In this document: positions 30,502 to 47,257 of the stretch, in pieces
Position numbering within the stretch: the first letter of the stretch is position 1
How the letters are laid out: the number at the start of each line of letters is the position of its first letter
DNA from: Solen grandis
Taxonomy: Eukaryota > Mollusca > Bivalvia > Adapedonta > Solenidae
Direction: 5' to 3'
NCBI GenBank assembly: GCA_021229015.1
Contig: CM037787.1
Location: 32,078,269-32,142,268 of the forward strand
Length of the DNA: 64,000 nucleotides
Notes under the pieces: generated by a model
Database searches by the model: none
What the model saw: the letters and a program-made list of their open reading frames with translations, nothing else
Told to the model about the DNA's origin: nothing
Program-made: the position numbers and the translations under genes

Positions 30502-31202
30502 CATGTTGAAGCACAAGAAGCATATTCTTAGAGTATATGGTGAATAGTGAAACACAAAACTAAATATTGTTTGATAAAATTGAAAGGGGTACTTATTCTT
30601 CCTTTTATAAAGAATGAAAATTAACCAAAAAGTACCATAGGGGCTGTTTTAAAAAAAAATGGCAGGAAACATGTAAAAATGGTCAAAATTTTAAACAGGT
30701 CTGAGTAAACATTTGATTACCTCATTATATTAAGCCGTCATTGCAGTCTACAAAAATGGTTGCGTGCAAAGAATATAACAAATATTAATTTTTTTATTGA
30801 ACTTTAATTCAGATGACCCAACAAAAAAAGAAAACAACATGTACTATCTTTAAAGTCACTGCAGAAACAAAAACATTATACTCTGTGTCTTTTTATGCTC
30901 AGTTTTCTTAGTTTACGTGTTAAAGTAAATGAAAAAATGTTCGAGCAAGCAGTATGCCCCCCCCCCCCCCCCAAAAAAAAAAAATCAAATTATTTTTTTC
31001 GCCATTATTTAGCCCAATTTAATGGCTACTATAAAGAAGCAAGTTTGTTTTCTCATTAAATTGTGTAACCTTAATACAAAAAAACTGCTTTCCCTTATAT
31101 TTTAAAGAATAGCATGTAAATACAACATATTATTACATAAACATGACTTAACATTAAACCTTACAAACTGATATAAACATATAGCAGTTTAATGAATAAA
31201 TG

Positions 31203-31552
31203 TTTCACTCCTGACATAATTCACATTATTATCATAACTTAGATTACAACTAAATCTTGTGAATTAAATAGAATACAAGTGTAATAATACCTTAATTTAT
31301 TATTGTAATGCTGAAATGAAGTGACTTTTCAACAGTGTTGATACTGAAACTTTGATTTTTTAACACTTTTAGAATAACAACGATGAATTGATAACAGAGA
31401 TTCAACTTTGAGTTAACTCACAAACAATTTGATAAGAACAGGTCATTATAGTACTGATTTTTTGCATATAAAAGTAACACTGTACTATTAACAGAATATA
31501 ACCATAATAACTTCTGAAAACATAAAATGTCAACATGTTTCACTCCTGACAT
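31203..31552 (+). repeat. Two left copies of the 15-mer TTTCACTCCTGACAT
   Basis: Exact copies at 31203-31217 and 31538-31552. The second ends 11 bases before the gene's stop codon complement. They are candidate subterminal transposase-binding or regulatory sites. Confidence 0.7.
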
Positions 31553-31562
31553 GTATGTCAAC

Positions 31563-31781
31563 TTAAACACTAGGAATGAGTCCTTCTGCACGTTCAAGCT
31601 CTGGTATGTTGAACTCCATTTTGATTCCACGACCAGGCAACAGTTTAGGCTGAGTTAGAGTTTGTAAAATATCATGTACTGACTGCCAGGAAACTTCATC
31701 ATTTGACCATGTATACACTCCCGGACGGCCTGTCTTCTGGAGGAACCTCAACTGTATTTCCGGTTCATCCAACTTGACAAC
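31563..31781 (-). CDS. DDE-like/OTU gene, exon 5 (last)
   Basis: Begins after the acceptor AAATTTACAG in phase 0 and ends in TAA. It encodes VVKLDEPEIQLRFLQKTG and a C-terminal ELERAEGLIPSV. No known fold was recognised; this follows the OTU domain. Confidence 0.65.
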   Translation of the reverse strand, partial: VVKLDEPEIQLRFLQKTGRPGVYTWSNDEVSWQSVHDILQTLTQPKLLPGRGIKMEFNIPELERAEGLIPSV

Positions 31782-31919
31782 CTGTAAATTTATGTAAATT
31801 TCAAGATTATATGTAGAAAATAGAGCTAAATAGTACACATATTTAATACACTTAACATATAAACTTGCTTATCTTATTTTAGAAGTGTCAGTTTCTAAAA
31901 ACCTATTTTTTAGTATTAC

Positions 31920-31992
31920 CTTGGCCAAATACAGATACTGCTTGTTTCTGCGTGAGCTCAGTTTGACTACAACAAAGTCCTGGGGTGCATAT
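31920..31992 (-). CDS. DDE-like/OTU gene, exon 4
   Basis: 73 bases between an acceptor (CCATATTTCAG) and a donor (GCCAAG|GTAATA). It encodes YAPQDFVVVKLSSRRNKQYL. The AG left by exon 3 plus its first A makes an arginine codon, so the phases agree. Confidence 0.68.
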
Positions 31993-32120
31993 CTGAAATA
32001 TGGAGATCAAAATTAAACTATTAATTTGGTCATGTCCATTTTAAATCAGTCATTTTTTGTATCAACACTTAGTTGTTAAAATAGAGTAAAAAAAATTGTC
32101 TATAAATGCTTGAAACTCAC

Positions 32121-32365
32121 CTTTCTGCTGGCTCCATGCTAACATAATGTTGTAACTCTGGTATGTATCCAATTGCTAACATTTCATCACCACCGTCAAC
32201 CTGGATGTTGGGATTGTTTGAGTGTACAATCAATATACTGGTTGAAAGAACTTTACTTATGATGCTGATGCATGGGTGGTCAGCATATGTTCCATCTTTA
32301 CTCATGTTTGACACATAGGAGTGCAAGTCTGAGGTAATGAACTCATTAAGTTCCAACTTCGCTTC
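32121..32365 (-). CDS. DDE-like/OTU gene, exon 3: C-terminal half of the OTU domain
   Basis: Starts after TTGTTTTAG in phase 0 and ends at a perfect donor (GAAAG|GTGAGT). It encodes the OTU segment SYVSNMSKDGTYADH, a hydrophobic strand ILIVHSNN, and LQHYVSM, which carries the expected catalytic histidine. With the DGNCFF box in exon 2, the visible key residues of an OTU deubiquitinase-like cysteine protease are present. Confidence 0.72.
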
Positions 32366-32595
32366 CTAAAACAATTCATTATATAACAATTACACATATC
32401 TATTATATACATATTAATCAAATTAAAGTTAATAATATGCTTGTTAGTGCTGAAAATTCACTGTAAGCAGTTGTATATAATTTATATTATATTAGTATAG
32501 ATATACATGCATATATACAATATAGCACAGCTCACAAAGGGACACATTTGCAATTGTAATGCTTATGTAACAAATCAGGAGCTAAATAATCGCAC

Positions 32596-32870
32596 CTCTG
32601 ACAGATCCTGAATGTGTTCAACAACACTTTTTCTTAGTTGCGTATGAGTTTGAGCTCTACCCATCACCCTGTCTAGTTGGTCAGACACTGCCCAAAAGAA
32701 GCAGTTCCCATCCTCTGGAGTTTTCCCCCGTATCTTCCATGCCTTTGCTTTAATTTTTTCTTCAAAGTCTGCCATGATTTTATCATGTCTTGACCTTTCT
32801 ATCTCAAGAGAAATGATGCTTTCAACCAAAGCTTTAGGTACACCACTTTCACCACCACCAGGATGACTAT
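32596..32870 (-). CDS. DDE-like/OTU gene, exon 2: N-terminal half of the OTU domain
   Basis: Encodes GKTPEDGNCFFWAVSDQL, the OTU Asp/Cys box, followed by the helix THTQLRKSVVEHIQDL. The donor is CAGAG|GTGCGA. The likely acceptor is GCGTAG at 32871-32876, preceded by a CTAAC branch-point-like sequence; upstream in-frame stops exclude earlier acceptors tested. It joins the large exon in phase if that exon ends at 33214. OTU domains remove ubiquitin in host proteins; the role inside transposons is unknown. Confidence 0.7.
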
Positions 32871-33213
32871 CTACGCATGCGTTAGTAAGGTTAGAAGCTA
32901 TTAGTTATAAGGAAGCTAAAGCAAAGATAGACAGTTGGTTATGAAAGATGGATTACCAACATTTGTTCTACTAAAAGCTACATTAGTATTATAACAAAAT
33001 TAAATACTACAACTGCCAACTACTTAGAAGCATTTCTGTGATATTTATTTATTTATAAAAGCATTTTTGTGATATTTATAAATACATTTCTGTGATATTT
33101 ATAAAAGCATTTCTGTGATATTTATTTATTTATAAAATTGATACATTTATTTATTAATCTAAACGCATAACATTTTAAATTAGAGTGCCTTTGTATGCTA
33201 ATAAAAAGGATAC

Positions 33214-34774
33214 ACATGTTGTCTGCTAGATTGGCAAGTGTATTGAGGTCTTTGAAGAGGATCTGTTTTCCATCTTGGAGCCTGATAAATTTGTCAGGAC
33301 GTCTGAACTGCATGAAGAAGCAAGGGCCCTCCTCTTTGGCAATACAGATGGGGCAGGAGCAGCTCAAGTCACAGCACGTCAGTATGCCAGTACTAGGTTT
33401 CCACTGCTTGACCATGTGGAATGACTGTGTCCCAGGCACTGATTTGGATGATGTGCTTTTCTGTGGTGCTGATTTCATCATTTTTGCTGGGAAATAAATC
33501 ACATGTTGTCTCGAGTTGTCGCTTGGATGTTGCCTCAGAGCAAGATATGCTTGATAAGTGGTATTTATCACTTTTCCTCCCAGTATCAGCCTCTCCAGCC
33601 TTTTCTTTATCCCGGCTCCTAGACCATCACTGGGCCCCTTCCCATGACTACTTTCTGTGTAGTGATACACTAGCTCGATGTTGTATTTCTCCTCCAAAAG
33701 CATAATGTGCTCGAATGCAGATTTGCTTTTGTACTGGGCGGCACAGTTATCTGAGAAGCGATGAATGATCGAAATTGGCACAGGACCAGGGTTGTTTTGG
33801 AGGTGGATAAGTAGTTGTTCTGTAAAGATGTAGACAGCCCTTGCATCATGGGTTAAACAGTCTGATAATATTATCAGAGACTCTTTTGTTATGATGGGCT
33901 CCTCTTCGGTACTACCTTCACCATGCCTTACAATATAAATCGGATGCAGTGTAATCTGTTTTTGAGTCCAATGGGCGGACTCTATCTCGTCCTGAGGTTC
34001 AAGTGTTACATTTTCAGAGAAGTCCATCACAACAAGGCAGTGATCTATTGGTAGTGTACACATGATTTCAGTTTCAACTCTATGTTGAAAATCAGCCCTG
34101 AACATGTGGCTGGTGAATGTGCCCATTTTTTGGGTGACATGTTCTACTATCTCTTTCATACTCTCTTTCTTTTCTGCTTGGATCCAACGCTTCGTTTTCT
34201 TGGTTTCACCCTTTCTGTTTGTGTACATCTCTGATGCCTGTTCCCACTGGATATACTTCACTTTTAGGTTTTGGGTGGTATTGTTGATTAATGGTTCATA
34301 CAAGTTTTGTATGGAATCAGTTCCACAATTTTGACATTCTCTGTCTACACATTTTCTGGCTGGAATTTTGTCATAGGGACATACAGATATGTCAGATAGT
34401 TCTCTGATTGTTGTTTGCAGATCATTGTTCGAACTTCCTTGTGCTACCTTGTTCAGTGCAAGTATCTGTTGCTCTAAGTTGTAATCTTTCATACAAACAC
34501 AAACCCTACGGCAAGCTAGATTCAGGCATCTGTAATTTCTAGGGATCATGTTTTCAAATGTGGATAATTTTCTTGAGAAAGTTTGATGTAATTTCTTGAA
34601 TTTTCGATACAACTTTAATTTGGAGCTTAGCAAATGGTGCTTTGGTACAGTTTCTCCGTTAATCAACAAGGTATCCCTCTTATTTGGCTTTACTCGGGAA
34701 TTAGAATCTAGGAATTCTGTAATTCTATCCTTCCAAGCTGCTCTATATGCTTGTGGTTTAGATATTCTGTTCAT
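33214..34774 (-). CDS. DDE-like/OTU gene, exon 1: putative DDE-type transposase
   Basis: The largest open frame of the window (550 codons without splicing, about 520 if the donor ACATGT|GTATCC is used). Visible features are a Cys cluster near residues 130-152 (including CVDRECQNCG); VVMDFSENV with Asp at about 252; FSDNCAAQYKSK with Asp at about 343; SHGKGPSDG with Asp at about 384; and a second Cys cluster CCDLSCSCPIC near 468-478. Spaced acidic residues in strand-like contexts suggest an RNase H/DDE fold. I remember similar uncharacterised repeat-borne proteins in many invertebrates. The assumed splice chain to 31563 totals 2373 coding bases (791 codons with the stop), divisible by three, with GT-AG at all four introns. 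The start at 34774 may be internal: related-looking sequence continues upstream in another frame. Confidence 0.72.
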
Positions 34775-35201
34775 AAATTTTTCTCTCTTGTTTGTTTTTT
34801 TTTTATCCCAAGAACTTCTTCAACATTTTCTGTATCCTTCGATGTTACCATGTTCATATGTGACAGCCTTCGTGGTGTAGCATTCTTAACTATATGATCC
34901 ATAGTGTTTGCCCAAGCTCTAGGACTTTCTGGTAGATGCCTGCGTGCTCTTTCGGCAGATTTTCGAATGTTTACAATTTTCTGCTTTCTTGTTCTTCTTG
35001 ATTGATTCTCTTTCTTTCTTGACTGTCTCTTTGTATTTTCGATTTCTTTTCAAGAAGTTCCTCATCCTTTTTCAACTTCTGTCTATGTTTTCGAACTCTT
35101 TCTGTGGATGTTATTATATTGGTTTTTGTCTCTGCTTTCAGTTTTTTTATTTCTCTTAATGATTTTCTGATGGCTGGAAGGCTAACAATAAGCATGCTCA
35201 T
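34775..35201 (-). pseudogene. Basic N-terminal extension of the DDE-like/OTU gene, frame-shifted
   Basis: A first segment (35201-34971) encodes a Lys/Arg/Glu-rich coiled-coil-like sequence. A second, in another frame, contains AERARRHLPESPRAWANTMD and leads to the 34774 start. Shifts occur near 34980-35050 and at a ten-A run (34796-34805). The basic LPxSPR module is typical, as I recall it, of the region before this transposase-like family. Breaks could be decay, a sequencing error at the homopolymer, or a further small intron. Confidence 0.5.
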
Positions 35202-35256
35202 CTTGGCTGCTTTATATTTACTCTATAAAATAAATGAATGCAATTTTACCACTTTA

Positions 35257-36194
35257 ATGTCAGGAGTGAAACATTTTTACCCATGCAAGAAATCATGCTA
35301 AGAAGAAATGATATATGCTGCAATTTGTTATTTGCAGTAATATGCAGTAACATTTGATAAAAACATAAGCATGAAAAACATAAAAATCATACAGAAAAAT
35401 ACGTTCTTCTTTTTAGACATATATATTTATAAGATATATTTTCAACTAATAAACTATTATTATAACAATTTTATTTAAAAGCATTAAAACACTTACCTTA
35501 TATGAACTAGATTGTAGTATTATCCGCAAATCATCACCCAGAAATTAAAAAAATCCACAGCTGAACAGTGTTGCTTTATAATATGCTAGTTTACAAAGTA
35601 GCACCAAAATTGAAAATCGCGTTTCACTCCTGACATTTACAGACATGCCATATACTCAATACACAAACACAAACTTCACTCATGACTGTCACTTGTGATT
35701 GCTCCAAGACACACACTTCTTGGAAAAATGCATTTGGGTACATATATGTTCTATTTTTAAACACAGTGGTTCATTTAAGTGCAAATGTTTCACTCCTGAC
35801 CTAATTTGGTCATCTAAGAATATACAATGCTAAAAATAGAATTTAAATATATGATGATTAAATTATTACTTGTTTAAGTCATTAATACATATAACTGTAT
35901 AATAGCAAGAGTAAGTTATGAAATACCATTAGTTCCAATAAGTTGTAGTCAATTACATAGATTTATACTGATTTTTTTATGAAAATAACATTACCGCCCT
36001 TACTCCTTTTCAGCCTTTTTTTTTTGTCTAAAACATTCTTATATATTCCTTAGTTTTATGTTTTTTATAGCCACGACATTCAACTTGAATAAAAATAAAT
36101 ATTTTACTCTCTCACCCACATTTTGACATTGAAATAACATTTTGAATTTTAAGCTTTTCTTAAAATGTCACGCTTTTTGTTGCACTCCTGACAT
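35257..36194. repeat. Four right copies of the 15-mer TTTCACTCCTGACAT
   Basis: Located at 35257-35271 (minus orientation), 35622-35636, 35788-35800 (last bases changed) and 36181-36194 (first bases changed). They lie upstream of the gene and inside the right part of the element. The other 900 bases here show no coding signal. Confidence 0.68.
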
Positions 36195-36375
36195 TTTTGG
36201 CATCTTTTATGGACATAACTTTTTTTTCTGTGAATATATCTTGACCAAATTTTATATACAACTCTATGACACCAGTTGGCATTTTTAGACAATTGAATTA
36301 GCATCTAATAATGCATAATGTGACAGAAGTTACTGAAAAACTAAAACTAGCCTTTTTTTTTAAAATAGCCCATAG

Positions 36376-36668
36376 CAAGTCAATCATTAAACATATAGCA
36401 CAAAAAAGATCTTACAAAATCCTCAATTAGACTATTGTAAATCACAAAATGCTTCCTTAGAAATTAGAAACTTAATTGTAACTTTTTATTAGTAATAGGT
36501 AATAATAGGTATAAAACAGTTAGTGTATCCTATTTATTGTGAACTTCCAAGAAAAGCAAAATTAAAATGTAATCTGCAATCTGACTTGCAATGAAATATA
36601 TATATGAGATCTTCCCCAACTGGGATATAAACCCTGATCTGCAAGTCCTGCATACAAATCTAATAGAT
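36376..36668. other. Non-coding part of the BEL/Pao relic
   Basis: AT-rich sequence between the 5.7-kb element and the recognisable BEL/Pao coding remnants; no motif seen. Confidence 0.35.
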
Positions 36669-37407
36669 TACGACTCATTTTCGTAAACCATGACCAACTT
36701 GTGTATTGGCCTTTCAATGTACCCATATGAACTATTGAAATGGAGTTTCTCCTTGCACACAAGACCATCGCCAGGGACTGCTTCTATAATACGTCCTAAT
36801 TTCCATTCACGTGAGGCATTATCATTAGATACCAAAGCAACATCTCCTACGAAAATATTGCGTGATGGCTTTTGCATTTTTCTACTTCAAAAATTCTCTT
36901 CGCCAACGGTACCAGAACTCATTTGCCAGATATTGAACTCTACGCCAACTTTTTCTAGAGAATAAATCGGGTCTTCTAAATTCTCAGGGAGGGGACAAAA
37001 CAACTTGTGATTTTATGATTAGAAGATGGTGACAACAAAAGAGGATCGTTCAAATTGTCCATTACGTACAGGTCTACATCTACATAGTGTAAATGGGATT
37101 GTTGCCTCGAGTCTATCATATGGCAAGTTTGCCATCTTCTGAGATTGGAGCGGCCCCTCAGTTTCCTACAAATTACACATTTAGAGATAAGGAAAGAGAC
37201 CCGCAGCCTATGACCCAATTCATTTGAGCGAATCTCGTTAACTGTAAGCCATTGTCCTTGATGCTGAACCTTGTCGTGACAATACCGAATGATAAGATTC
37301 GTAATATGACGTTTTCTGGGAAGTACAATAGGGGTGTATAAACTCGGATATGATATACCTCTTTCCAGCCTCCGCGCGCATGTCAAAAAAAGGAAACTCC
37401 TCCGCAA
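36669..37407 (-). pseudogene. BEL/Pao retrotransposon relic: integrase zinc-finger and C-terminal domains
   Basis: Minus-strand fragments in sequence: LPRKRHITNLIIRYCHD and KCVICRKLRG (integrase H2C2 zinc-binding region); PLLLSPSSNHK; then, in another frame, RRVQYLANEFWYRWRREFLK; and NIFVGDVALVSNDNASREWK with RPIHKLVMVYE (C-terminal DUF5641-type domain after the integrase). The catalytic integrase core between them is mostly deleted, and stops and frameshifts are present. This is an old, inactive copy. No LTRs were identified. Confidence 0.78.
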
Positions 37408-37530
37408 ATACGCAAATTAATTCGCAAAATAAAAATGTTCTTTAACAATGGCGCAAATCTTAAACAAGGAAGACTGCTCCTTTCGACCACTCGCATTTCC
37501 GTACTTGCACCGATTCGAACTTGGTGACCT
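37345..37530 (-). repeat. Sequence duplicated at 30160-30345
   Basis: Covers the upstream edge of the BEL/Pao relic and about 120 further bases; see the copy at 30160. Both carry CGTACNTGCACCGATTCGAAC. Confidence 0.55.
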
Positions 37531-40698: not shown

Positions 40699-42119
40699 AT
40701 GCCACGCTTGAAGAAAAAATCAAATCTTCAGAAACAAAAACTTGATAGACTGAGAAAACAAACAGAAAATATAAAACCAGTGACAGTCCCAGCATCGGAT
40801 AATGAATCAGATTTCATCAATGAAAATGGCCATACATGTGTAGGAGATCATGGCCAAGGAAATGTGGACTTGACACAGCAGTATGTGTTCAATTGTGTTG
40901 ACTTTAGATGGCAGGTTGATAAATGTAGTGAAATAAATGAACTTTATGATGCGGAACTGAATATATGTAACAACTTACCTGACAGTCAGCCATGTCAAAT
41001 AACTCAGCCAGCAAGATGTGTGCAAATAAGTGGGGATGGAAACTGTTTCTTCAGATGTCTAGCATACCTTCTATGTGGGGACCAGTCATACCACAGTCAC
41101 ATGAGACAAGTTCTACTGTTACATATGTGCAGTAACTCAGAAGTGTAACATTCATTCCTTCCACCAAATACTACAATGGTGCAATACATAAACCAGGCAG
41201 AAAATAGTGTCTGGGCAACTGAGGTTGAAGTAATGTCTATGGCACATCTACTTCGAACAGATATTTATACTTATTCAAAATATGGAAATAAAATGGCATG
41301 GATAAAGCATTCAGCACATTTTGTTGACAATTCAGTTGGAGTGAATGAAAGAAACATCTATCTAGACCATCATACAGGGGATCATTACAATGGTGTCTTA
41401 ACAGTTGGGCCAGAAATATCATCACATAGTAAAGAGGAAAAGTCAGTGCTTTGGAACGAAGTCTTAAAACAAACAAATTTATCCAAAGCTAGGTATAACA
41501 AACTTTATAAACAAAGACAAAGAACAAATTTGGTTTTTAAATGTGCTGAAAAGAGAAAAAGGAATGAAACACGTGCAGCAAAGCGCTGCTACACCGACTT
41601 CAAAAAGGTTGAAAATGAACAAGGACTAAAACAAGAACAGCCAAACGCAGTCAGCCAGACTTCAAAAGGGCTGAATATGAACAAAGGAATAAAACAAGAA
41701 CAGCCAAACGCTGTCAGCCAGACTTCAGAAAGGCTGAAAATGAACAAAGGAATAAAACACGATCAGTCAAACGTGTCAGACAGACTTTAGAAAGGCTGAA
41801 AATGAACAAGAATAAAACCGCAGTCAAACGCTGTCAGACAGACTTTAGAAAGGCTGAAAGTAGACAGAGAAATAAATCCCGTCAAGTAATAAGAAATGAT
41901 GATAATTATCGTAAAAAAGAAAATTATGCTCGTTCTCAAACTAGGCTGAAATTGAGGACAAATCCAATTCATAAAAGAAAGGAGTCAGTCAACAGGAAGA
42001 AATGGAGAAGTACTTTAAAAAGAAAGATAGATGAAAGAAATTTGCAACATCAAAGTAGAGCCAGGTGCAGAAGCATGCCAAATTTAAAACTCCAAGTTAC
42101 CATTTTTAATGATTATTGA
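40699..42119 (+). pseudogene. Helentron N-terminal part with OTU domain, broken
   Basis: Starts with a basic MPRLKKKSNLQKQKLDRLRK segment. The OTU box ISGDGNCFFRCLAYLL lies at about 41028-41075, and the OTU C-terminal part is seen as VWATEVEVMSMAHLL and HTGDHYNGVL. An in-frame TAA (41146-41148) interrupts the OTU domain. After it comes a basic repeat region of about 63-bp units (41595-41860; KRCQTDFRKAE-like) with several single-base shifts. In living Helentrons this part precedes the Rep domain on one long protein. Its catalytic role in transposition is unknown. Confidence 0.75.
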
Positions 42120-42127
42120 AAAGGGGG

Positions 42128-44632
42128 GATGACTTTGTGTGTACATGTTGCCATCAAACATTCTACTAGCACAGTGTATATACCATTGGTCGCCAACATC
42201 TTATTAAGAAAGGTATCTCAGAGGAATTTTTAGACAACGTTCTCACCAACTATAAAAGTGTGTCAGAGGAAGAATGGATATGCAAGACTTGTAACCAGTA
42301 CATAAAGACTGCTCGAATCCCTCCTATGTCAGTAGCAAATGGATTTGCAATACCTAAACTTCCGGACCATCTGTTATCACTTTCTCCAACTGAGACAGAG
42401 GAACGTTGTTGTGCACTTAGAATTCCTTTCATGCAGTTAAAACAGTTGGGAGCTGGAAAGCAGATAGGTATACATGGTAACACTGTGAATGTGCCAATGG
42501 ATCCATCACAAGTAGTGTCCAGTCTTCCTAGAAGGTTTGAAGATACTGATACCATTCACTTACTATTCAAAAGAAGAACTAAATACAAGTCAGCTCTGTA
42601 CCATGAAACTGTACGTCCAAAGGTTATCTATAACCTTACAAAATACTTCATAGAAAACTCAGATCTGTACAAGGAAGAAGGGGTGAAGCTAAAAGATGTG
42701 TGGCTCCAACCTGAAGACGATTCTGAGATTAGTTTTGTGTCTGAACAAGACTTGAAAGATCTAAATGACAAAGATAAGGATGAAAATACCATTGCTAATC
42801 CACAAGCAGAGGACTCTGAGGACACATGGAATGAATTAAATGAAGAGCAACAAGCAGGGGCTGCAAATAAGGACACTTTATTACAAAACATAGACTTTAC
42901 AGATGATGGTGTCCATGCACTAAAGATAGCACCTGGTGAAAACAATCATCCAATAGGTCTGTTTATGGATCCTTTTGCTGAAGAGAAGTCTTTTCCTGTC
43001 CTATTTGCTGGCCAAAAAAGATGTCAAATATTTGGAAAAAAAAAAAAATTAGTTCCTGTAAAATATAGCTCCATCTGTAAGGCAGAGTTAAGGAATGTAG
43101 ATGGCAGATTTTCTAAAGTAGTTCCAAACATATTCTTCAAACTTAAAAAACTTCAGACTCTCCAGGTTAAAGATATGGCAACAACAGCACTCAGAAAGTC
43201 ACAGAATGCCTCATTTACAGCTGGAGATTTAAAGTCATCAGTACAGTTAAACAACATACTTAAACATGATGAAGGCTTTAGGTTTTTGAAAACTCTGCGG
43301 TCATCTCCAGCATATTATCAGACAAAGCAAAAAGAACTGTTTGCTATGATCAATCAGCTTGGCCTGCCAACCTTCTTCGCTACATTCTCTGCTACAGAAA
43401 CAAGATGGAATGATCTACTGATACTGTTGTCTAAAAAGAATGGATGTATATTGACAAAAGAGGACATAGCAGACTTGTCATGGATGGACAAATGTGACTT
43501 AATCAAACAGAATCCTGCAACATGTGCTCGTCATTTTCACTATCGAACACAACTGTTCCTAAATAACATATTGAAATCTAGTGTGTCACCAATTGGAAAG
43601 TTAGAAGACTATTTTATTCGCGTAGAATTCCAACAGAGAGGTTCACCGCACCTCCACTGTCTCTTCTGGGTCAAAGATGCTCCAGTGTATGGAGTTGATA
43701 CAGATAAAAAGGTCACAGAGTTCATTGATATGAACATCAGTACATCTTCAGAGGTTAAGGAAGAGGATAAGCAGTTCATCCAACTACAGTCCCATCATCA
43801 TTCAAAATCATGCAAGAAAAATGGAGAAAAAAATATGTCGCTTTGGGTTCCCTCTACCTCCAATGAAGGAGACTATGATTTTAGAACCATTCGACTCAAA
43901 CGCAAACAAGGATACAGTAAAAGCCAGTAAAAAGAATTATGAAAAAGTAATGAATGCAATGAAAACACTCTCTAAGGATGAAGAGGTTGAATTTAACCAG
44001 TTTCTTCAAAAGTGTGACTAAACATATGACCAATACCTAGGTGCTGTGCGGTCAACACTTAAGAAAAAGCAAGTTGTACTTAAGAGATCTGTAAAAGATA
44101 TTAGAGTCAATGGGTACAATCTTGAAGTGTTAAAGATATGGCAAGCTAATACAGACCTACAATATGTGCTTGACCCATGGGCAGTATGTGTTTACATTGC
44201 CAGTTACATTATGAAGTCACAGCGTGGAATGAGTCAATTGTTACAAGGTGCTGCAGAAGAAGCCAAAAAAGGAAACCTTAGACTGCGAGAGAAAGTCAGA
44301 CTTATAGCAAATAAGTTTCTGAATCACTGTGAAGTTTCTGCACAAGAAGCTATATACCTGCTGCTGCAACTGCCTCTCACACAAAGCTCAAGAAGTGTTA
44401 TTTTCATAAATACCTCACCTCCGAATAAGCGAATTGAAATTCTTAAACCAATGTCAATGATTGAACATCTTCCGAATGACTCCACCGACGTTTTTTGCTC
44501 AGGTCTGATTGAAAAATATGTTGAAAGACCAGATATGTTAGAGAATGTATGCCTTGCAGAATTTGCATCTTTGTTTGAAAGAACCCCCCCCCCCCCAAAA
44601 AAAAAGACACATCAAAGGAAATTGAGATAAAC
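42128..44632 (+). pseudogene. Helentron Rep (HUH nuclease) region, broken
   Basis: A Cys-rich start (CTCCHQTF, then WICKTCNQYI) is followed by the Helitron-like N domain and the Rep core. EFQQRGSPHLHCLFWVKD contains the two-His HUH box (HLH at 43649-43657). Further on, VYIASYIMKSQRGMS holds the expected active-site tyrosine pair. HUH Rep proteins nick and join single strands for rolling-circle transposition. Breaks are TAG at 42167-42169, a shift at an A-run near 43815-43832, TAA at 44019-44021, and a shift at C13-A9 (44584-44605). The main open piece is 42260-43930. Confidence 0.82.
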
Positions 44633-46620
44633 ATGGATGACATTGACAATAATGTTGAAAAGGTGACAAGTGGAATGGAGTTCAAACTCAAAGATGGATA
44701 TCGTCTTGTCAAACGTTTAACTCCAAAAGTTATTCGCTATGTTAAATTTAACATCAATAAGGATCCAGAACTGTACTATAGAGAGCAGCTTATGATGTTT
44801 AGACCATTTAGGGATGAAAATATGTTAATGGGAAAGTCTACTTCATATAAAGATGAGTACAACATCTGGTGTGATCAAATCATGGATATTCGTGGAAGGT
44901 TTCAAACAGCAACAGCTGGAATGGAGGAGGCAATGAAAGGTATTTCTGAGGAGAGAATAGAAGAAGAACTGAATGAAATAGCACCAGTAGCAAGACAGTT
45001 AGAGGAGGATGGGTGCATGATCAATGAAGATGAAGCTTCTATACTACAACCTCCAAATGCAAAAATGACTGAGTATGATGTTGGACTTGATATTGGTGGA
45101 TACATCGACAGACAAGAAGTAACCATTCCAAACAGACTTGCTGATGAAGAATTCCTTCAGTTAACATTGACATTGAACAAAGAGCAGCAAATTTTCTTCT
45201 ATGAAATTTTAAGTAGAGCAAAATTGGAATCAGAATCTTTTTGTGCCTTCTTGTCGGGTGGAGCAGGAGTGGGTAAAAGTCATGTCCTGAAAGTAGTCTA
45301 CCAAGCATTAGCACGATACTATGACAAAATACCTAGAGAAAATACTGATGACATGAAGATTGTTATAGCTGCACCAACAGGAAAAGCTGCATACAATGTT
45401 AGAGGGAATACACTATATAACTTATTCAATATTCCTCCAATTAAAAGTCTGGCAAATTATGTCCCCTGAGATCACAGTACTCTCAACACTTTACGATGCA
45501 AATTTCACAAGTTGAAGATGCTGATCATCGATGAAGTCTCTATGGTGGGGGTAAATCTCTTCAACTTTATCAACTGCAGACTTCAGCAAATCTTTGATTC
45601 TCAGAAGCCATTTGGTGGGGTGTCACTTATACTAGGTGATCTGTATCAGCTTAGACCAGTTGGCGACTCATGGATCTTTATAAACAATGACAGTCAGTAT
45701 GGCCCCCTTATAAGGAATCTGTGGCAAGATACTGTAAAACTATTTGAGTTGACTACAGTCATGCGGCAAAAAAAAATGATTCTCAGTTTGCTATGTGTCT
45801 AAATCGTATAAGAGAATGTAAGCACACACAGGCTGACATCAGTCTTATATCCTCAAAAGTAGCAAAAAAGGAAGACCTCAGTAATTATGTCCATTTTTAT
45901 AGTAGAAATTCTAATGTCAATGAGTACAATGACCGTGTTCTGTCAACGAAGGTAGGTAAGAGATTTATCTCATCAGCTATTGATTACCCACAAGGACATG
46001 TTTCAGCCAGTGCAGCAAGGACATTGATAGAACAAGCTAAAACCCTTGAACCTAAGAAGACACAGAACCTGCAATATAATCTGGTACTTAAAGAGTCTGG
46101 TAACTACATGATAACTCACAACATAAACACTTCTGATGGTCTCACAAATGGAGCCACCTGCCTGATTATAAAGGTTCAGTGTGTCAACAACAATCCCTCA
46201 GTGGTTTGGGTCAAGTTCCCTGAAGATGATATTGGAACTGTAACACGGCATGAAAATCATAACCTGTACTCAGCAAGTTCAGATATTAACAGATCTTGGA
46301 CACCAATTTTAAAAGTTCAAAAAGAATTTCAAGTTGGAAAGAACAATACAGTCAGAGTTGTAAGAAAGCAGTTCCCCTTGACTCCTGCTGAAGCAATAAC
46401 AATCCATAAGTCACAAGGCTCAAGCATGGACAAGGCAGTAATATCATTTAAAGGTCATATCCAGAAACATATGGTATATGTTGCCATGAGTAGACTACGT
46501 ACACTTGAAGGACTGCACTTATTGGACTTTGACCCAAAGAAAATATCTGTGGATCCACTTGTTGAACTAGAAATGAAACGTCTAAGGTCAGAAGGAATGC
46601 TTGCATGTAATAAAGGAATT
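44633..46620 (+). pseudogene. Helentron PIF1-like helicase region, broken
   Basis: Walker A as SGGAGVGKSHVLK at about 45256-45291; AAPTGKAAYNVRG; Walker B as [11 protein letters not shown] from 45512; [11 protein letters not shown]; and the C-terminal helicase motifs ITIHKSQGSSMDKAV and MVYVAMSRLRTLEGL. This is the PIF1-type 5'-to-3' helicase fused to Rep in Helitrons. An in-frame TGA lies at 45467-45469, and the frame shifts at an A9 run near 45770. The remaining frame (45793 onward) runs uninterrupted into the endonuclease domain. Confidence 0.85.
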
Positions 46621-47257
46621 GATAAAAAAAATACCATCTCTGTAGTTTGCCACAATGCAAGGTCCCTTCACAAGCACATTGAACATTATCGCATTGATGA
46701 TAGACTTACACAGAGTGATATATTGGTTGTTCAAGAGACCTGGGTAAAATGTGATGATCAGATGGTCTATTATGAAATTATTGGTTTCCAAAATGCAGTG
46801 AGTGTATTCAACGATAAAGGAGGACACAGACCCCACTCAGGAACATTTATTTATGTGAAAAAAGAAGTTGCAGTGGTTTCAAGCAAGCAGCATACAGAAC
46901 CAGGTATTGAGGGTGCAAGTTTGGTGGTCTTCAAGAACAGTGCTCACTATGAAATAATATCAATATACTGTCAGCCTCCGGGAAATGTTGAAAAAATTCT
47001 AAGAATGTTATTAAGACTTCAATCCTTGAAAACAAACACTCTAATTGTTGGAGACTTCAACATCAACCACCTAGATTTATTAAAATGTGCTAAACTCAGG
47101 GATTCCATGAACAGTCACTTTAAAGCCAAACCTGTCATCCATACTGAAACGACTGATTATCACTCTGCTGTTGACCAGATCTACAGTACAGATCCCAGAA
47201 CAAGAGGGGCTTGAAACCTATTGGAGTGACCACAAAATGGTGTGGGCTGCCATATAA
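46621..47257 (+). pseudogene. Helentron C-terminal endonuclease/exonuclease/phosphatase domain
   Basis: Fused in frame to the helicase. It shows ISVVCHNARSLHKHI, ILVVQETWV (catalytic-type Glu), LIVGDFNINHLD (Asp and Asn) and, after a one-base shift near 47200, SDHKMVW (Asp-His) ending at a stop at 47255-47257. These are the AP-endonuclease-like motifs that distinguish Helentrons from canonical Helitrons and resemble LINE endonucleases. All main catalytic motifs are readable in spite of the final shift. Confidence 0.8.

Follow-up and report, generated by a model that had tools for sequence, protein, structure and literature searches.

The window analysed here is a stretch of 64,000 nucleotides from the bivalve Solen grandis (assembly GCA_021229015.1, contig CM037787.1, positions 32,078,269 to 32,142,268 of the forward strand). 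Its positions 30641-36371 hold what is fairly probably a damaged DNA transposon, likely of the cut-and-paste type, with a minus-strand gene predicted to be spliced into a single protein: a transposase with a catalytic triad of three aspartates (DDD) and an OTU deubiquitinase-like domain that follows the catalytic core and precedes a C-terminal barrel. That a DDE-like (here DDD) transposase and an OTU domain share one spliced gene, as a preliminary description made from this sequence alone had proposed, is well supported by sequence comparison and structure prediction: exon 1 has a predicted RNase H fold, the joined exons 2 and 3 match the OTU family, all five exons recur in a diverged relative, the last two are shared with other transposases of the family, and a gene model from Mya arenaria brings the parts together.

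A single gene, predicted to be spliced

The five exons have GT-AG borders and agreeing phases, sum to 2373 bases and form one open frame of 790 residues followed by a stop. Their coordinates are those of the preliminary description and were borne out here, as was its placing of the OTU Cys and His boxes on two exons: the Cys box is on exon 2, and exon 3 has the His box, assigned by eye. The features of the gene are:

33214-34774, minus strand: exon 1, Cys-rich module and predicted RNase H core (reading frame, conservation, predicted structure)
34024-34022, minus strand: codon of D251 (conservation and predicted core)
33751-33749, minus strand: codon of D342 (conservation and predicted core)
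33628-33626, minus strand: codon of D383 (conservation and predicted core)
32596-32870, minus strand: exon 2, first OTU half with the Cys box EDGNCFF, Cys codon at 32703-32701 (splicing and Pfam)
32121-32365, minus strand: exon 3, second OTU half with the His box LQHYVSM, His codon at 32149-32147 (splicing and Pfam; His box by eye)
31920-31992, minus strand: exon 4, beginning of the C-terminal barrel-type domain (splicing and homologues)
31563-31781, minus strand: exon 5, remainder of that domain and stop (profile of exons 4-5 matches homologue C-termini)
34775-35201, minus strand: disrupted N-terminal coding part that in relatives runs on into exon 1, first ATG at 35201-35199 (alignment of copies and of the database relative P0001)
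35223-35496, minus strand: candidate 5'-leader intron, donor AAG/GTAAGTG, acceptor ATAG (by eye)

Three sister copies (L009, L010 and L011) keep GT or AG at 21 of their 24 aligned splice sites, eight in each, and the three losses all concern donors, one in L010 (exon 1) and two in L011 (exons 2 and 4). Because L010 lacks its GT, the exon 1/2 junction is the one of which the sequences leave us least sure. Short direct repeats, CATTTCTGTGATATTTAT, are found in this first intron at 33025-33137.

All five exons are present in the same order in the relative L014, at 62-63% identity for exon 1 and 49-63% for the others, with exon phases that, by reading of the alignment, equal those of the window; five residues are missing in frame from its exon 3, and its right end is truncated. 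The ratio of nonsynonymous to synonymous differences (pN/pS) between the window copy and L014 comes to 0.30 in exon 1 and to 0.36 in the OTU exons (bootstrap 0.28-0.47), the true ratios being likely lower, as silent sites are near saturation. Judged by this comparison, all five exons in L014, including both OTU exons, are under purifying selection.

A profile of exons 4-5 matched 13 of 120 homologues at E < 0.01, among them P0028 (1.8e-10) and P0085 (1.6e-8), and wherever a position was given the match was the C-terminal end of the homologue. One of the 13 is P0003, and neither OTU profile matches any of the remaining 12. Family members in which no OTU was detected thus share their C-terminus with exons 4-5, and this places the OTU exons inside the transposase gene, between two parts of one transposase. 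P0003, the gene model from Mya arenaria, brings together the core, the Cys box and first OTU half, and the barrel end; its OTU reaches 20.1 bits, under the Pfam cut-off of 23.3, with the second half missing, and one source labels the protein ubiquitinyl hydrolase.

A different arrangement would be two genes within the element, the transposase gene stopping in the first intron and the OTU being encoded by a gene of its own. Some database open reading frames (P0001 and P0004) do seem, by eye, to continue from exon 1 into intron-like sequence. However, the exons downstream of the OTU (4 and 5) encode the transposase family's own C-terminal domain, the phases are conserved in L014, P0003 is one gene model, and two loci with another type of OTU (L043 and L045, described below) have one frame without introns. 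We regard two genes as quite improbable, and one spliced gene is the reading retained here.

Transposase core and C-terminal domain

Structure prediction gives exon 1 an RNase H fold of the integrase/Mos1-like kind, a result that the preliminary description had named beforehand as a check. Across 120 sequences D251 is invariant, and D342 and D383 are kept in at least 90%; in the predicted core the three lie beside strands or at the start of a helix, and they are predicted to form the catalytic triad. The Pfam scan of exon 1 matched no transposase family, and Foldseek on its own gave no match below E 0.001. The C-terminal domain is predicted to be an SH3-like barrel resembling the BAH, Tudor and chromo readers. 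P0042, a database protein of the same transposase family, carries a C-terminal SET domain (E = 7.3e-15), a further case of a chromatin-directed enzyme fused to this core.

OTU domain

Joined, exons 2 and 3 match the OTU family (Pfam PF02338) with 52.2 bits (E = 1.1e-13; cut-off 23.3); singly, exon 2 scores 21.9, below the cut-off, and exon 3 scores 25.3, above it. The match includes the Asp-Gly-Asn-Cys box and ends before the His box, and both EDGNCFF and LQHYVSM are present in the window as well as in L014. The closest solved relative by sequence is OTUD3 (E = 3e-7 over exons 2-3), and a sequence comparison with the PDB gave four rows, each a cellular OTU deubiquitinase. As a database query, the OTU-barrel part alone returned no match, in a search that is insensitive, because P0003 carries pieces of this part and yet went unfound.

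Other family members have similar cores and no detected OTU, as would be the case if the OTU were a pair of host exons captured passively and functionless in transposition. Against such a capture stand the purifying selection on both OTU exons, the retention of the Cys and His boxes in the window and L014, the presence of the OTU in the Mya relative and the second OTU type at the equivalent place (below), and we hold it to be unlikely.

The preliminary description had also suggested that the protease might process the polyprotein, that is, cut the fusion into a transposase and accessory parts. The OTU does belong to a Cys protease family and lies within a long protein. Nevertheless, it is flanked by the core and by a domain kept attached in relatives without a detected OTU, the protein contains no ubiquitin-like stretch by eye, and the PDB matches are to cellular deubiquitinases. 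Self-processing gained no support and is given little credence here, removal of ubiquitin being the likelier role.

Another OTU type in this transposase family

Two loci of the same genome, L043 and L045, encode a DDD core and then another OTU-like domain (type B; that of the window is type A) in a single intronless frame; in L044 the core motifs and the OTU share one frame, with the N-terminal part falling in different ones. These three loci were picked from 85 rows for their long frames. The Pfam OTU cut-off was passed by L043, L044 and P0084 and not by L045; P0036 fell below it, and P0076 had no match. A type-B profile (L043, L044, L045, P0084 and P0036) matched 12 of 212 proteins, two being members of the profile, and both core motifs are also present in 10 of these 12. 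The barrel lies downstream of the type-B OTU in P0212, by profile, and in P0181 and P0191, by eye, the domain order being that of the window.

The likeness between the two types is distant (hhalign probability 38%). In a quick tree, with the OTU state unknown for most rows and a long-branch warning (it joined P0036 and P0084), type A lies within a branch of 29 rows with support 100, and type B is placed outside it, requiring two changes. Tentatively, as a reading that is possible rather than probable, these transposases could belong to an undescribed, animal-wide DDD superfamily that has a deubiquitinase as a fixed module, placed after the catalytic core and ahead of a chromatin-reader barrel and gained or remodelled at least twice (an OTUD3-like type A and a vertnin-like type B), such that the transposase would edit chromatin ubiquitin where it is cutting. 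P0036, a Plakobranchus protein carrying a type-B OTU, is called vertnin by one source, and the vertebrate gene vertnin may share an origin with the type-B OTU transposases.

Damage to the window copy

The preliminary description had called the transposon complete and its gene intact, and neither term holds. The window copy is net 103 base pairs (bp) shorter at 34774-34796 when set against L009, L010 and L011 (three of three aligned copies), and likewise L013, with further insertions or deletions near 35045 and 35005-35011; the ATG that had been proposed (34774) coincides with the junction of the first of these changes. The frame of L014 extends about 227 codons farther upstream, to an ATG whose counterpart in the window is at 35201, and L014 has a single open frame of 781 residues in this part, whereas the N-terminal stretch of the window copy matches the relative P0001 in three different frames. 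What the window copy has lost includes an AT-hook-like IGRPRK motif, seen by eye in L009; the homologue P0026 has an AT-hook match under the cut-off (E = 0.015). From these alignments we conclude that the window copy is damaged and could not make the full protein.

Element ends and target sites

The element is bounded by terminal inverted repeats, GGGCT(G/A)TTTTAAAAAAAAA, of 19 bp, 18 of which match, and ATAG lies directly outside both, as had been noted from the sequence:

30637-30640, plus strand: left target-site duplication, ATAG (sequence and comparison of copies)
30641-30659, plus strand: left terminal inverted repeat, GGGCTGTTTTAAAAAAAAA, on the 3' side of the gene (boundary recurs in L009, L010 and L011)
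36353-36371, minus strand: right terminal inverted repeat (boundary recurs in L009, L013 and L015)
36372-36375, plus strand: right target-site duplication, ATAG (sequence and comparison of copies)

In the copies just named the boundary base is identical on the left and on the right, and the flanking DNA differs among them. The preliminary description had looked to other copies with the same ends and 4-bp duplications: the shared boundaries are there in several copies, but a duplication with matching sides is found in the window copy alone, one of three copies having both ends. L009 and L013 have mismatched flanks, and L013 has also lost the first five bases of the element. The left end of L016, AAAGGCTAG, is unlike those of the other copies and was excluded from the tally of nine copy ends, in which the 4 bp outside the element read ATAT four times, ATAG twice (both in the window), and CCAT, AGTT and ACGT once each. 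Because the left-most 200 bp of the element, as a genome query, found five places, this looks like a small family of copies in the genome, with counts that are lower bounds covering the left-end query and the fetched loci. Numerous small differences within single-letter runs were seen in L013; this region of the assembly may be unpolished, and the decay there partly technical.

Subterminal repeats

The element contains six occurrences of the motif CACTCCTGAC, none of them in a coding exon, against a mean of 0.003 and a maximum of 1 in 300 first-order simulated sequences. Two lie on the left; of the four on the right, one is inverted. In 100 simulated sequences the count of the commonest complex 10-mer never exceeded 4. 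When 2 mismatches were allowed, a scan of the whole window gave 10 matches against 4.34 expected, and therefore the near-exact repeats alone stand out. They were located by repeat scan:

31202-31220, plus strand: subterminal repeat 1, GTTTCACTCCTGACAT type
31537-31555, plus strand: subterminal repeat 2
35257-35276, minus strand: subterminal repeat 3, inverted
35621-35639, plus strand: subterminal repeat 4
35787-35805, plus strand: subterminal repeat 5
36179-36197, plus strand: subterminal repeat 6, GTTGCACTCCTGAC

L014 and L016, which are 66-72% identical to the window in the longer alignable stretches of DNA, have six repeats each in the same order and on the same strands, a layout thus common to three families. 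The letters preceding the repeat core are GTTT at five of the six window sites (GTTG at the other) and GTCA at 11 of the 12 sites of L014 and L016 (ATCA at the other), so that sites within an element are more alike than sites at the same place across groups. Among the other copies, several of those with fewer repeats being truncated, exact repeats number five in L009, four in L012 and in L015, two in L010 and in L011, one in L017 and none in L013. The natural reading of this arrangement is that the subterminal repeats are putative transposase binding sites and, being conserved, they are ready candidates for binding tests.

Comparison with known systems

The novelty first suggested for this combination, that it may be undescribed, was too strong for the kind. 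According to the accessible parts of the sources cited in this section, cut-and-paste transposases of Ginger1 that bear a C-terminal OTU or Ulp1 domain have been known since 2010 (PMC2836005), and VTD deubiquitinases of transposons have been assayed (PMC9741609). Ginger1 is the precedent for joining a transposase to an OTU.

Ginger1 has in common with the window element the transposase and OTU (or Ulp1) in one protein, the 4-bp duplication (seen in the window copy) and introns (PMC2836005), and the DDE-type core might further suggest that the element is itself a Ginger1 transposon with an OTU. However, Ginger1 has a Gypsy-integrase-type core with a GPY/F motif, TGTNR ends, CCGG/CCGT targets and a C-terminal OTU (PMC2836005), whereas the window element has a DDD core without a Pfam match, GGGCT ends, an ATAG duplication with ATAG/ATAT flanks and a barrel after the OTU; no integrase family, the type of the Ginger1 core, turned up for exon 1 in Pfam with E values up to 1. 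Membership is contradicted by three defining features (ends, duplication and core), and the element is almost certainly not a Ginger1.

By its predicted DDD triad, its short ends and the 4-bp duplication seen in the window copy, the element resembles Sola. A DDD transposase, a 4-bp duplication and a length of 2-9 kb are described for Sola (Sola2), with examples of short inverted ends and AT-rich duplications including ATAT (PMC10741241, PMC3627910); the word OTU is absent from the accessible text of PMC3627910. We liken the two by description alone and do not file the element there. No Sola name occurs among 219 overlapping homologue rows (the best 120 of 128, plus 99), most of which are nameless, so that this is uninformative either way.

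Deubiquitinase-type domains are also encoded by transposons in the OTU of Helitrons and Helentrons and in VTD, but the former are rolling-circle RepHel elements and VTD is another class (PMC9741609). VTD deubiquitinases are active in vitro, and a role in guarding proteins from degradation has been proposed; the OTU domains of transposons are stated there to be untested (PMC9741609). Helitron membership of the window element was rejected: Pfam found no Helitron family in six open reading frames of the element (E up to 1), and a duplication and inverted ends are present. A Trichomonas protein named in PMC2836005 (XP_001314237.1, transposase_11 with Peptidase C19) likewise joins a DDE-type transposase to a ubiquitin hydrolase domain, although the transposase family and the peptidase class are others. 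OTUD3 and related cellular deubiquitinases match over exons 2-3 and have no transposase part. In the literature covered, mostly outside subscription papers, we recognised no report that places an OTU in a cut-and-paste transposon other than Ginger, Sola-like ones included; the transposase-deubiquitinase pairing is otherwise seen in this analysis only in unrelated mobile elements.

Proposed roles of the domains

In the spliced transposase proposed here, the basic, Cys-rich N-terminal part would bind the CACTCCTGAC repeats and the ends, the DDD core would excise the element and join it at AT-rich 4-bp targets, and the barrel would keep the complex on chromatin. The OTU may strip ubiquitin from the transposase complex or from chromatin near the break, shielding the complex against degradation or against ubiquitin signalling at that site. 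Ubiquitin-pathway proteases occur in unrelated mobile elements (Ginger1, Helentrons and Mutator-type Ulp1), and their role is left open in the accessible parts of PMC2836005 and PMC9741609. With members both with and without a detected OTU, a defined place for it and two OTU types, the present family is a natural comparison for the benefit that a transposase might draw from ubiquitin removal.

Neighbouring elements

A Helitron/Helentron-like element with Helitron_like_N, PIF1-type helicase and endonuclease matches lies in the window at 41149-47214. Its open reading frame 41149-41790 has by eye the look of a second OTU half, without a Pfam match; derivation of the OTU from this element, about 5 kb away, was rejected, the frame having no similarity to it (best E 6.7). 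Adjoining the right end of the transposon, at 36668-37416, are an open reading frame with a DUF5641 match and an integrase-like one (by eye, without a Pfam match), which are possibly the remnant of a BEL/Pao-type retroelement.

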